From: a bacterium
GTDB taxonomy: Bacteria > CAIJMQ01 > JAADFP01
NCBI GenBank assembly: GCA_027021085.1
Contig: JALUVB010000088.1
Location: forward strand, 1-5,745
Reading direction: 5' to 3'
Length of the DNA: 5,745 nt
The notes beneath the pieces are model-generated. The model did not search any database. It saw only the letters and a list, made by a program, of their open reading frames with translations, and was not told the DNA's origin. Below are positions 826-4,444 of this stretch, in pieces. Made by a program: the position numbers and the translations under genes. Positions within the stretch are counted from its first letter, which is position 1; each line of letters begins with the position of its first letter.

Positions 826-1938
826 TTATCTGGGTTCTAAGTCAATAATTGTCCAGAAGAGACTGGTAAAGGTAAGGGTAAGGTTGGCATTTCTCTCCAG
901 GAACAATTTTGTCTTTTCTAATGTTTCCAATTTATGTTCCAGTTTTTCCATAGAACAGGCACTTAATTTCTTAACTATTATTATACTATCAGAATTGAGT
1001 ATATCTTTCCTTCCTTTCTTATACATCACGGCATCCCAGAACAGGGAGTAAAGGAGAGAAAGTATCTGGGTAAGAAAAATTTTTATTTTTTCTTCCACCT
1101 CTGATAAGTACTGGTTTTCTTTGTCTTTGGCAGAGGATTTTCCTTCCACGGCTCGGATTTCCTTCATTTTTTTCTCTATTGCCTCTTTGTTTTTTTTCTT
1201 GCTTGTTTTTACCTTCTCATTGATAAGCTCGGTAAGCCGGGAGACGCGGGAGAAAATGGGAGATTTACTCTTTAATAGTTCCAGGATTTTTCCCCTCAGC
1301 TCCCATATCTCCATTTCCTTCCACAACTTTATCAGTTCTTCATCACCCCCCGTGATGGAGTAGAAGAGGGAAGCCTTTTCCCGCTCCCAGCCCGAGACCT
1401 CTTCTATCCAGTCCAATACTTTTTCCCGGGGAGGGATGAAGAATCTGACTCTATCGCAGCGAGAGACGATGGTGGGGAGAAGAAGCTCCGGCCGGGGAGA
1501 TAAGAGAATGAGAGTGGTGAAAGCGGGCGGCTCTTCCAGAATCTTGAGAAGTGCATTGGCTGATTCTACGTTTAAGCGATGGGCATTTTCTATCACCACC
1601 ACTTTCCACCTGCCTTCCAGGTGGGAGAGATGAACTTTTTCTTTTAGCTCTCTGATTTTGTTTATGCCAATGCGTGAGGCTGCGCCGCCGGGCTTTATCC
1701 TGATAAAATCCGGGTGAACATCTGCCTCTATTTTTTTACAGGAAGTGCAGTGGTCGCAGGGCTCTCCGTTGCTTCTGTTTGTGCAGTTCAACGCCTTGGC
1801 AAATTCGCGCGCGGCTGTATCTCTTACCCACTTGATGCCTCCGTGGAAAAGATAGCAGGGAGAGATACGCTCCTTATTTATGGATTTCTTGAGGTAGTTT
1901 ATAGGGAGGTCTTCGCCTATTATTTTTTGAAAAGACAT
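826..1938 (-). CDS. holB: DNA polymerase III delta' subunit (clamp loader)
   Basis: A 370-residue AAA+ clamp-loader protein of the DnaX/HolB family. The DnaX-like zinc site is seen as C52, C61, C64 and C67. The conserved sensor/helix block ESANALLKILEEPP (125-138) and the SRC motif (159-161, arginine finger region) are intact. The P-loop position reads GGIKWVRDT (33-41) and lacks the GKT needed to bind ATP; the Walker B acidic pair is also altered (IENAH, 116-120). That pattern suits delta', the non-ATPase stator, rather than the tau/gamma motor. A lysine/glutamate-rich stretch at about 242-283 precedes the C-terminal domain, which ends in the family-like LERNANLTL (347-355). It overlaps the 3' end of tmk by 19 bases, and tmk-holB is a widespread pairing. 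The ribosome-binding site is weak (AAGAAG, eight bases from the ATG), so translation is probably coupled to tmk. Confidence 0.92.
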   Translation of the reverse strand: MSFQKIIGEDLPINYLKKSINKERISPCYLFHGGIKWVRDTAAREFAKALNCTNRSNGEPCDHCTSCKKIEADVHPDFIRIKPGGAASRIGINKIRELKEKVHLSHLEGRWKVVVIENAHRLNVESANALLKILEEPPAFTTLILLSPRPELLLPTIVSRCDRVRFFIPPREKVLDWIEEVSGWEREKASLFYSITGGDEELIKLWKEMEIWELRGKILELLKSKSPIFSRVSRLTELINEKVKTSKKKNKEAIEKKMKEIRAVEGKSSAKDKENQYLSEVEEKIKIFLTQILSLLYSLFWDAVMYKKGRKDILNSDSIIIVKKLSACSMEKLEHKLETLEKTKLFLERNANLTLTFTSLFWTIIDLEPR

Positions 1939-2543
1939 GGCAAAACTTCTTTTTCTACTATATCCAGCACCTTTTTCAGGACGACATCTTTACCCTCTTC
2001 CACTTCAATGATTTTTATCCTCTCAGGTTCGCTTCGGGCAATTTTTAAGTACCCTTCCTTTACTTTATTGTGGAAAGAGAGGGGCTCATTCTCAATACGG
2101 TCTCTGCCTGCCTTCAGGAAACCCAGGGGGGAAGGAGTGGTGAGCAGGAAGGTAATCCCCGGCTTAATACTGTGGGTTACCCTGTGGTTCATTTCTTTTA
2201 TCCAGTCCAGGGGCAATCCTCTCCCGTATCCCTGATAGGCAAGGGTTGAATCTGTGAATCTGTCCAGGATTACCACCTTTCCCTGTTCCAGGTCGGGAAT
2301 TATTCTCTTATCCACCAGTTCACTCCTGGCGGCAAAGTAAAGGAGAGCCTCGCTCAGGGGGGAAACATTGGTATAGAGAAGAATCTCTCTTATCTTTTCT
2401 CCTGCTTCTGTTCCGCCCGGTTCTCTGTAAAGGGAAACAGGAAGATTTTTATCTGTAAGGTACTTTATCAAACCTTCTGCGATGGTGCTTTTCCCGCAGC
2501 CTTCAGTGCCCTCGATGCTTAAAAGATATCCGCTGTTGAACAT
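1920..2543 (-). CDS. tmk: Thymidylate kinase (dTMP kinase)
   Basis: Phosphorylates dTMP to dTDP with ATP in the cytoplasm, on the route to dTTP. Numbered from the ATG at 2543 (207 residues): P-loop EGTEGCGKST at 11-20, substrate motif REPGGTEAG at 40-48, the DRFTDSTLAYQG block at 94-105 and the LID-type GRDRIE at 146-151. Family length is about 200-215. A GTG at 2567 would add eight residues (Met-Asn-Ser-Lys-Lys-Asn-Arg-Asp). I prefer the ATG because known family members have only a few residues before the P-loop strand, and because the GTG lies inside the 7-base repeat array. Neither start has a well-spaced ribosome-binding site; AGGG is only two bases before the ATG. The segment that usually carries an acidic residue after the core strand reads LLTTPSP. 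The gene overlaps the holB-type start by 19 bases. Confidence 0.93.
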   Translation of the reverse strand: MFNSGYLLSIEGTEGCGKSTIAEGLIKYLTDKNLPVSLYREPGGTEAGEKIREILLYTNVSPLSEALLYFAARSELVDKRIIPDLEQGKVVILDRFTDSTLAYQGYGRGLPLDWIKEMNHRVTHSIKPGITFLLTTPSPLGFLKAGRDRIENEPLSFHNKVKEGYLKIARSEPERIKIIEVEEGKDVVLKKVLDIVEKEVLPCLFKK

Positions 2544-2559: not shown

Positions 2560-2649
2560 CTATTCACTCTTTACTATTTACTGCTTACTCTTTCCCCCCG
2601 CTACCCGCTACTTGCTACTAACTACAGGCTACAGTCTATATTCTACCTC
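2560..2649. repeat. Degenerate 7-base tandem array between lpxK and tmk
   Basis: On the plus strand the stretch divides into thirteen units, twelve of 7 bases and one of 6 (2595-2600). Each full unit starts with CT and nine of the twelve start with CTA, for example CTATTTA, CTACCCG, CTACTTG, CTACTAA, CTACAGG and CTACAGT. The phase holds across 90 bases, though the last four bases of each unit vary. On the transcribed minus strand this gives TAG every 7 bases. The array fills the lpxK-tmk gap, supplies the lpxK stop codon (2629-2631) and covers its last six sense codons. It is not CRISPR-like, because there are no spacers. A similar but shorter array follows infB. Confidence 0.7.
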
Positions 2650-3738
2650 ATGGGGTAGAATTTTTCTCAGTTTTTCCGCCAGTATTTCTTCCCCTTCCAG
2701 GAAAGCGAATTCTACCACCAGGGAGTAAACAGGAAAGTTCCCCAGCCCCTTCTCGGGCAACTTGAGGGCATCCTTTTCCGTGGTGATGACAAGGTCTGTA
2801 CCCTGCGATAGAAAAGAGAGTGTTTCCCTTAGCTCATCCTCGTTGTAGAAGTGGTGGTCACGGAACCTGGCTATGCGTTCTACCTTTGCTCCCAGGAGGG
2901 AGAGTGTTTCCTCGAAGTAGTGGGGGTCTCCCACTCCGGAGAATATTCCCACCTTTTTCCCTCTGACTGCTTCAACAGGGAGGCGTTCACTTTTGCTTTC
3001 CGGCAGGGTCTTTTTCTGGAGGAATTTTGCCCGGTGAAAGCCTTTAAGAAAGGGAATGCGGGGGAATTTTTCCTGTAGGGAAGAAATGGTTTCCCTTTTT
3101 ACTTTCTGGCTGTTGGACTTGGTGAAAATTACCAGATCTGCTCTCTGCATGGCATAATAGGGCTCTCTTAGTTTGCCGCGGGGAATGAGATAGTTGTTGC
3201 CGAGAGGGTCTGTTGCGTCTATAAGGAGTATTTCCAGGTCTTTTTGCATTCTGCGGTACTGGAATGCATCATCCAGGATGATACATTCTGTCCGGAAGGC
3301 CTTGTGGAGCATAAGAGAGGCAAGCCGGCGGTTTCTGCCAAAGGATAGGGGGAGGTCGGGCAGTTTTTCTTTCAACAGAAAGGTTTCATCACCTATCTCC
3401 TGCCAGCTGAGAGGGCTTATCTCCTCTTTTCCCAGTAGTCCTTTTTTTCTCGTTGCTCCGTACCCTGTGGTTACCACGCCAATTTTTACACGGGGCTTGA
3501 GTCTGCTGGCCAGGTATTCCACGAAGGGGGTTTTTCCTGTGCCTCCCCAGGTTAGGTTCCCCACGCCAATTACTTTGAAAGGGAGTGGTTCTTTTATCTT
3601 TTTTTTGCGCTTGAGAAGCCAGGATAGGTAATAAAGATAGCTCAGGAATGTGAGCCCGGGGAGGAGCCATTTGTTTTCGCCTTTTATAGCTTTTAAGAGA
3701 AAAGGATAGTTCTCTATTTCCCGTGGGTAATCATGCAT
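2629..3738 (-). CDS. lpxK: Tetraacyldisaccharide 4'-kinase (lipid A pathway)
   Basis: Transfers phosphate from ATP to the 4' position of the tetraacyldisaccharide-1-phosphate lipid A precursor at the inner face of the cytoplasmic membrane. The 369-residue product has an N-terminal hydrophobic stretch (about 24-42) followed by a basic cluster (KRKKK), suiting membrane association. The family P-loop is GNLTWGGTGKTP (60-71). Further family motifs are TGYG (91-94), IGDE (115-118), DDAFQY (156-161, usually DDGxQH), LREP (190-193), FRDHHFYNEDE (292-302) and ITTEKDALKL (318-327). It starts within rbfA: ATG at 3738 overlaps the rbfA stop by eight bases, with no clear Shine-Dalgarno, so coupling is likely. 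Its stop codon and last six sense codons lie in a 7-base repeat array. Family identity is secure; the Gly-to-Ala and His-to-Tyr changes in one active-site motif leave activity slightly open. Confidence 0.94.
   Translation of the reverse strand: MHDYPREIENYPFLLKAIKGENKWLLPGLTFLSYLYYLSWLLKRKKKIKEPLPFKVIGVGNLTWGGTGKTPFVEYLASRLKPRVKIGVVTTGYGATRKKGLLGKEEISPLSWQEIGDETFLLKEKLPDLPLSFGRNRRLASLMLHKAFRTECIILDDAFQYRRMQKDLEILLIDATDPLGNNYLIPRGKLREPYYAMQRADLVIFTKSNSQKVKRETISSLQEKFPRIPFLKGFHRAKFLQKKTLPESKSERLPVEAVRGKKVGIFSGVGDPHYFEETLSLLGAKVERIARFRDHHFYNEDELRETLSFLSQGTDLVITTEKDALKLPEKGLGNFPVYSLVVEFAFLEGEEILAEKLRKILPHEVEYRL
2640..2661. repeat. Perfect 8-base inverted repeat at the 3' end of lpxK
   Basis: ATTCTACC (2640-2647) and GGTAGAAT (2654-2661) are perfect inverted copies around a 6-base loop. 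On the plus strand the stem is followed by TTTT (2662-2665), like a weak intrinsic terminator, but no plus-strand gene was found. In the minus-strand mRNA the stem forms just before the lpxK stop and is preceded by A's rather than followed by U's, so it is not a classical terminator for the operon. It could slow 3' exonucleases or affect coupling to tmk; this is inference. Confidence 0.45.
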
Positions 3739-4063
3739 TAGTTATCGTTTCGTTGCTGTATATTTTCTCCCATTCCTCATCGTAGCAAAAGGTAAAATGT
3801 GGAACGTAGCGGAGTTTGAGCCGGTGGGTAATTTCTCTTTCCAGGTAGGGAGCAGCGCTTCTCATCCCCTCCAGTCCTTCTTCTTTTCTGCCCTCCTCCA
3901 CGCCAAAGGTCATGAAAATACGGGCAGACCTGATATCCGGGGAAACTTCCACCCGGGTAACGGTGCAAAATCCCACGCGTGGGTCTTTAACATCGGCAAG
4001 CAGCATCTGGCTGAGCTCTCTCCTGATTGCTTCTCCCATTCTGAGAATGCGCTTTCTTTTCAT
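3731..4063 (-). CDS. rbfA: Ribosome-binding factor A (30S maturation)
   Basis: A 110-residue KH-fold protein that binds the immature 30S subunit and helps process the 5' end of 16S rRNA, notably in the cold. The N-terminal helix (RMGEAIRREL, 8-17) and the signature KDPRVGFCTVTRVEVSPD (26-43) are clear, as are the ARIFMTF strand and the LRYVPHFTFCYDE strand near residues 83-95. The end is unusual: after the final strand the family normally has a helix of the DxSIExGxxI type, while here the protein ends in a short diverged tail (EEWEKIYSNETITNA). Start is the ATG at 4063, overlapping the DUF503 stop as ATGA. Its 3' end overlaps lpxK by eight bases. The infB-ylxP-rbfA order is conserved in many bacteria. 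Confidence 0.93.
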   Translation of the reverse strand: MKRKRILRMGEAIRRELSQMLLADVKDPRVGFCTVTRVEVSPDIRSARIFMTFGVEEGRKEEGLEGMRSAAPYLEREITHRLKLRYVPHFTFCYDEEWEKIYSNETITNA

Positions 4064-4341
4064 AATATTTCTTTCTCAAAGTTAAGCACTTCCAGGTTTT
4101 TTACCATGTCCCCGAAACTTATCACATTGTCCAGCACTTTTTCTACCTGGACACGGGAACTGTTTATATAGGCGACACCAAGAACAGATTCTCTCCAGGA
4201 CTCCTGCTTTTCTAACTCGCAGACACTAACCTGGAACTTTCTCCGCAGCTTTTCTTTGTAGCTTTGCAGAACCTGTCTTTTATCCTTGAGGCTCTGGGAT
4301 TCAGGGAGATAGATATGGAGCCTCAGAGCACCGATAATCAT
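4060..4341 (-). CDS. ylxP: DUF503 family protein (YlxP-like)
   Basis: A 93-residue protein matching the DUF503/YlxP family: a first strand with a hydrophobic core (MIIGALRLHIYLPES), then SLKDKRQVLQSYKEKLRRKF (17-36) and VSVCELEKQESWRESVLGV (38-56), all typical. The molecular role is not established; its usual place between infB and rbfA suggests a link to ribosome biogenesis or translation. A TGA eight codons upstream in frame (gap 4342-4434) limits the start, and the ATG at 4341 is the best candidate, with a loosely spaced GAGGG eleven bases before it. The stop overlaps the rbfA start as ATGA. It is the first gene after a possible internal promoter. Confidence 0.9.
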   Translation of the reverse strand: MIIGALRLHIYLPESQSLKDKRQVLQSYKEKLRRKFQVSVCELEKQESWRESVLGVAYINSSRVQVEKVLDNVISFGDMVKNLEVLNFEKEIL

Positions 4342-4377: not shown

Positions 4378-4406
4378 ATTATACAGGGGATTCTACCCCG
4401 TCTAAA
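4378..4406 (-). promoter_or_regulatory. Possible sigma-70-type promoter for the ylxP-rbfA-lpxK segment
   Basis: On the minus strand TTTAGA (4406-4401; four of six to TTGACA) and a perfect TATAAT (4383-4378) are separated by exactly 17 bases. The -10 box ends 36 bases before the ylxP ATG, leaving room for a short leader. The spacer contains GGGG and CCCC arms (4399-4396 and 4389-4386) around a 6-base loop, a small dyad that might be an operator or chance. The -35 hexamer lies in a unit of the 7-base repeat. Prediction from sequence only. Confidence 0.4.
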
Positions 4407-4444
4407 GTCTATGGTCTAATGTATTCTTCTCTGCTTACTGCTGT
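4402..4444. repeat. Shorter degenerate 7-base array after infB
   Basis: On the plus strand CTAAAGT, CTATGGT and CTAATGT follow in perfect 7-base phase (4402-4422). After ATTCTTC and one extra T come CTGCTTA (4431-4437) and CTGCTGT (4438-4444). The related CTACCCCGT (4393-4401) lies just before. The nine bases CTGCTTACT (4431-4439) recur in the array at 2581-2589. The infB stop codon (4435-4437) is inside the array. With the promoter candidate and the ylxP leader, this accounts for most of the 93-base gap between infB and ylxP. Confidence 0.5.

Follow-up and report, generated by a model that had tools for sequence, protein, structure and literature searches.

The locus analysed here raises the question of what kind of element the period-7 array at the lpxK-tmk junction is, and why such arrays stand where they do. 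The over-abundance of heptameric repeats in bacteria has been noted without an established cause or role. The genus to which this DNA belongs is a clean case, in which the 7-base phase is kept, the unit sequences are swapped and a near-absolute strand rule holds at the 3′ ends of protein genes. With this case it can be tested whether repeats of this kind are parasites that translation filters or elements of the mRNA 3′ end. The repeats also rewrite gene ends, as the stop codons of housekeeping genes (lpxK, infB) sit in array units.

The whole stretch of DNA examined (the window, 5,745 nucleotides) corresponds to contig C88 in an assembly of 1.93 Mb and 307 contigs, the host genome (G000). Its genes are all on the minus strand: those for a PSP1-domain protein and a DNA polymerase III delta′ homologue, tmk, lpxK, rbfA, a DUF503 gene and infB. 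By IF-2, the closest named relative is a ‘Caldisericota bacterium’ MAG, JAADFP01 (94% identical). The comparison genomes comprise a congener (G001), one member of the same family (G002) and four of the same class (G003-G006). The family statistics cover ~345 kb of readable G000 sequence, with 691 kb from G001 and 400 kb from G004, and use genes called with a simple ORF/codon model.

The period-7 array in the window is real. Phased CT dinucleotides number 12, against a dinucleotide-shuffle mean of 7.1, and 12 or more were reached in 1 of 3000 shuffles. Thirteen units in a 7-base phase with one 1-base slip had been counted in the preliminary description; the single phase and the slip stand, and the units are 12 led by CT and one C-run unit without CT (~2594-2600). 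The CT-led units start at 2560, 2567, 2574, 2581 and 2588 and, across the slip (2588 to 2601, 13 bases), at 2601, 2608, 2615, 2622, 2629, 2636 and 2643. The array is not a uniform CTAnnnn repeat, as first described, since it consists of three sub-blocks with their own consensus each, and the slip is the junction between blocks A and B (Table 1). Read along lpxK, it is a canonical, plain C-B-A copy of an ordered mosaic. Tandem Repeats Finder (TRF) reported only ~75% matches on block A. The family is distinct from long heptanucleotide simple repeats of tandem identical units, as 2-3 of the 7 unit positions vary.

Table 1. Positions of array blocks and associated genes in the window
Feature	Positions	Strand	Evidence or remark
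tmk, downstream gene	1920..2543	-	PF02223, 1.4e-44
Block A, five heptads	2560..2594	-	minus-strand family consensus AGTRARY; TGA/TAA in nearly all units
C-run, A/B junction with 1-base phase slip	2595..2600	.	sequence, unit positions
Block B, four heptads	2601..2628	-	minus-strand TAGNNRG: TAGCGGG, TAGCAAG, TAGTTAG, degenerate TAGCCTG
Block C, degenerate, three units	2629..2649	-	contains lpxK stop TAG 2631-2629; codes lpxK C-terminus ..VEYRL
lpxK, upstream gene	2629..3738	-	Pfam PF02606, 3.9e-69; end inside array
Second array of the same family, block C heptads (TTAGACCATAGACTTTAGAC along genes)	4400..4424	-	between infB and the DUF503 gene
A-type heptad CAGCAGTAAGCAG with infB stop TAA (4437-4435)	4431..4443	-	also behind infB in near relative L058 (~4092-4110)

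The array was also said to span the gap between lpxK and tmk. It does lie in the gap, but lpxK runs into it, so that the lpxK stop (2631-2629, minus strand) is itself an array unit and the final residues (..EYRL*) are array-encoded. On the other side, tmk probably starts at the ATG at 2543-2541, as judged from the congener, where the Tmk start is MFNSGYLLSIEG, and not at the GTG at 2567 inside the array.

The array belongs to a family present throughout the genome. Four consecutive CTAN4 units match 300 times in G000 (reversed pattern 0) and 209 times in the congener (reversed pattern 16). Phased intergenic period-7 triplets are observed 984 times against 15.4 expected in G000 and 1073 times against 51.2 in G001; the same-class G004 has 510 against 39.8 expected, with different unit sequences. 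When all trinucleotides in intergenic DNA are considered at periods 4-15, period 7 alone is prominent, apart from the multiple 14 and a weak signal at 8. The heptad matches are nearly all intergenic, and dispersed mosaic copies from distant gaps share 93-96% over 150-244 bp. The genome-wide scan and the test of intergenic enrichment suggested at the outset were thereby borne out. Four-unit TAGACNN arrays occur in 183 and 54 copies in the two congeners and in 0-3 copies in each of 143 other genomes. Wide horizontal spread was rejected, as among the 145 genomes these arrays hardly occur outside the genus. A scan of four sources with Rfam returned tRNAs only.

Along the gene, the blocks follow the order C (TAGACNN), B (TAGYGRG), A (AGTRARY), and octads (GGTATCCT), a hairpin and another C often come next. 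The block-order counts are BA 45, CA 44, CB 39, AD 35 and FC 13, against AC 3. An E block (AGTTGYN) is found in other copies of the family. Units are drawn from small dictionaries, with eight NN words in the C block of G000, and the word varies with its position in the array, a dependence that independent slippage would not yield. ‘Decayed repeat DNA’, one of the descriptions offered earlier, is too weak for small unit dictionaries, fixed block order and dispersed copies. The core of the C unit is least conserved at the T of TAG (92% / 84%), and the A, G, A and C are conserved at 98-100%. In block A, the stop TGA or TAA is present in 106/118 and 51/55 units; this TRA survives in ~90% of units, since its variable position holds a purine. 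Block A is regularly followed, in its own orientation, by runs of octads (GTATCCTG / GGTTTCCT, period 8), for example at L040 ~3870-3920 (TAG-sense) and in mosaics of G000 and G001.

The hairpin has the form GTCAT-stem-GNRA-stem-ATCC. It is found 24 times in the ~345 kb G000 sample and 44 times in 691 kb of G001, in composites with heptad blocks, and the family thus contains many dispersed intergenic short palindromes of the REP/BIME kind. Loops are GNRA in 67/68 hairpins, with all four bases at N, and the stems vary by compensatory pairs (e.g. in the L050 and L054 gaps and at G001 loci). Near stop codons the hairpin strand is unbiased (2:2). Some hairpins (ATTCCC-GCGAAAGC-GGGAAT) match the neisserial dRS3 formula ATTCCC(N)8GGGAAT.

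The arrays are strongly oriented with respect to the preceding protein gene. Within 100 nt of a stop codon the sense:antisense counts are 64:1 for block C, 44:3 for block A and 40:3 for block B, which bears out the proposed dependence on strand and on distance to stop codons. Such bias is missing near start codons (C 10:15, A 6:9, B 11:12). Convergent gaps are polar on both sides (18:2). Behind 58 distinct tRNA genes no sense array was found within 250 nt, and antisense arrays stood behind two. Among gaps of 100-1500 bp, arrays are carried by 21/32 convergent (66%), 57/162 co-directional (35%) and 12/40 divergent ones (30%). An array is present at 74/839 gene ends; since 20 of the 40 G000 sample loci had been selected for carrying arrays, these densities are affected by the choice of loci, and the orientation is not. 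In G004 period-7 heptads are present without polarity; the stop-proximal arrays are few and of mixed orientation, so that in this small comparison the sense-orientation rule appears to belong to the genus of the window.

Several simple causes of this polarity were considered. Purine loading alone was rejected, because start-proximal blocks are unbiased. Avoidance of Rho inside operons is disfavoured, as convergent gaps are equally polar. Ascertainment, in which the array itself defines the stop, accounts for the in-phase stops and not for arrays behind conserved native stops. Native stops are conserved between orthologs, with an array behind, at L044 12626-13979, L046 62-1211 and L056 9297-10599, and the polarity is therefore not simply a matter of arrays defining stops.

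Arrays nevertheless donate stop codons. The proposal that TAG every 7 bases closes the reading frames was correct, and at least 23 sampled genes use an in-phase array unit as their stop codon; lpxK is another. In 49 further genes a stop is followed by a sense array without phase preference (8/49 in phase). Some of these were also seen by eye to end on array stops, namely lpxK and several TAGTRA ends; in lpxK a degenerate unit stands between the stop and the strict block, which places the gene among the 49. REPs and BIMEs share the preference for gene 3′ ends and the donation of stops. Different G001 proteins carry common array-encoded C-terminal tails (..LDYRP, ..DYRL, ..NYRP), as at L094 17038, L102 7632, L106 4316 and L109 6306.

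The 3′ ends of orthologs show turnover of the arrays. Among 112 ortholog pairs with complete 3′ ends, an array stands behind both members in 8, behind one in 12 and behind neither in 92, where chance would give 1.7 shared. Block content differs between orthologs with arrays behind both. The lpxK-tmk gap holds C-B-A in the window (61 bp with the long tmk call) and C plus a hairpin in G001 (177 bp); G002 lacks the gap, as its two genes overlap. The congener (L064) has an intact C block where the lpxK end in the window has a degenerate one. In the G001 ortholog of L052 7856-8879, the GAGTAA end is swapped for the array CTATAG. A 13-bp convergent gap in G000 (L052 1371-1384) corresponds to a 702-bp mosaic in G001 (L170 1368-2070). 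At this one locus the mosaic is flanked by a TCTCAGGCT direct repeat, which might be a target duplication.

The array is best regarded as a member of a dispersed, non-coding, REP/BIME-like family of mosaic repeats, built of heptads, in the intergenic DNA of this genus (probability about 0.6). Mosaic copies would spread through duplication of the element, and recombination or slippage would reshuffle them with the 7-base phase kept, the conserved core of 4-5 bases serving as microhomology. Copies would be retained head-first (C/B gene-proximal) in the coding-strand orientation immediately after protein genes, this being the least harmful orientation: as the sense orientation is rich in stops and purines, insertion into or behind the last codons would cost just a short tail. 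The polarity would then be due to selection on orientation and not to oriented insertion, and several genes, lpxK included, would in this way have come to end on an array TAG or TAA. The polarity behind native stops that orthologs conserve is unpredicted by a pure filter of safe insertion into coding ends, and the fact that AGAC is better conserved than the stop T suggests an additional constraint.

As to the agent of spread, neither a transposition intermediate nor a clear target duplication nor a mobilising enzyme could be tied to the family. A 225-aa Y1_Tnp protein (L138 625-1303, contig C45 of G000) has the size of a REP-associated transposase and is at most a candidate partner of the repeats, with no linkage to them observed. 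The best Y1_Tnp hit (L137), in a short frame, does not count as evidence of such a transposase, and copying driven by reverse transcriptase was rejected because the genome has no RVT_1.

The array had been suggested to act as a frame-independent translation stop. In that case TAG, TGA or TAA every 7 bases would be selected to trap readthrough and frameshifted ribosomes. Each heptad of blocks A, B and C does provide one stop on the sense strand, the variable purine of block A preserves it, array stops are in use by the genes counted above, and placement is sense-only at protein-gene ends and absent at tRNA ends. The arrays, however, reach far past the ~21 nt required, are present at just a small fraction of gene ends, and in the core of block C are least conserved at the very T of the stop. 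Most of the other genes with an array behind them have their own stop first, few of these arrays are in phase, and the heptads of the same-class G004 are unoriented. Selection for termination as the main function is accordingly unlikely. Since conservation in the core is lowest at the T, intact native stops stand before many arrays and the heptads of G004 are unpolar, frame-independent stopping is best read as a consequence, or as part of what makes the orientation tolerable, and not as the conserved feature. A spaced protein-binding array, another early suggestion, may apply, but a double-strand DNA site alone would not account for the strand specificity at gene 3′ ends. An element of the 3′-UTR would, if sense (UAGACNN)n or (AGURARY)n and the GNRA-capped hairpin were bound by a putative protein or nuclease that sets the processing or stability of the mRNA 3′ end. 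It is consistent with the strict strand specificity, also in convergent gaps, with an AGAC/AGT core conserved above the stop, with the GNRA loops on compensatory stems and with the reuse of 3′-end sites across species with different blocks. GNRA-type loops are stable in single-stranded DNA as well; the array RNA has no structure beyond shuffles, and the hairpins lack a strand bias near stops. This reading too is improbable, and so to the same degree is its sequence-specific form, in which a putative factor would read AG-led cores of the sense RNA every 7 nt and blocks A, B, C and E would be interchangeable. Species would then have sites in common and blocks swapped, as the blocks would be versions of one and the same element.

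Considerably more doubtful is a Rho terminator acting in antisense, in which rut-like RNA of the opposite strand (C-rich, G-poor and unstructured) would halt antisense transcription before it reaches the gene 3′ end. For the array of the window, RNA from the opposite strand is compatible with this (C 33%, G 8%, MFE -3.2 kcal/mol), Rho is encoded in the genome and the orientation suits convergent and co-directional gaps; E blocks, on the other hand, are not C-rich by that rule on every strand. Least probable is a neutral degenerate microsatellite, arising by polymerase slippage with a preferred 7-base step and subsequent point mutation. Long simple repeats in many bacterial genomes are most often heptanucleotides (reviewed in PMC4679880), and G004 also prefers period 7 with different unit sequences, but fixed block order, shared dictionaries, index-dependent words, long dispersed copies and strand polarity at stops are not what such a process would leave.

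A dispersed mosaic family has several partial counterparts, and both stop donation by repeats and the over-abundance of heptads are already known. In Xanthomonas, heterogeneous (GGGANTN)n heptads form hundreds of intergenic arrays in which part of the unit is fixed and the rest varies (PMC4692102). They lie on average 28 nt from the 3′ end of the preceding ORF, are more frequent in convergent than in divergent gaps, occur as inverted pairs and differ from species to species at shared sites (PMC4692102). The family described here likewise comprises hundreds of dispersed intergenic arrays whose heptads combine fixed and free positions, close to the 3′ ends of preceding ORFs and rich in convergent gaps. 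The Xanthomonas repeats, however, have one G-rich block with G-quadruplex potential and use both strands about equally (30% / 35%) (PMC4692102), whereas several blocks in fixed order, an AG core and nearly absolute sense polarity are found here. Marine Beggiatoaceae contain TAACTGA direct repeats, which are dispersed, intergenic and strongly oriented and carry stop codons in the forward orientation (PMC4679880). These are nearly invariant and lie just upstream of starts (PMC4679880); the present units are degenerate and lie behind stops.

GTAG REPs and BIMEs are placed <20 bp from ORF 3′ ends, prefer unidirectional and convergent gaps, and often give a TAG stop through their termini (PMC3733652). 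The likeness lies in short intergenic repeats at ORF 3′ ends that donate stops. REPs are nevertheless palindromes of 20-40 bp with a GTAG or CGTC tag (PMC3733652), whereas the stop-donating part here is formed by non-palindromic heptads. A GTAG or CGTC tag beside the hairpin palindrome is absent; the conserved flanks are GTCAT...ATCC, and the gene-adjacent block consists of heptads. The neisserial intergenic mosaics with dRS3 are similarly mosaic repeats around a hairpin, but comprise RS units of 50-150 bp bounded by two dRS3 (PMC9778887), in place of the heptad arrays and compensatory stem variation seen here. The literature searched contained no heptad mosaic of several blocks with a nearly absolute sense polarity.

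Heptads of related or other types were encountered elsewhere. In IMG/VR, 21 stretches of viral contigs (L203-L223) carry TAGAC heptads, mostly near-uniform and with up to 11 units (L208); their unit words are other than those of this genus and they do not form a C-B-A mosaic. Repeated matches to the reversed control patterns (CAGATNN, ATCNNNN) were seen in the genomes G121, G064, G035, G015 and G040, which seem to carry other heptad families.
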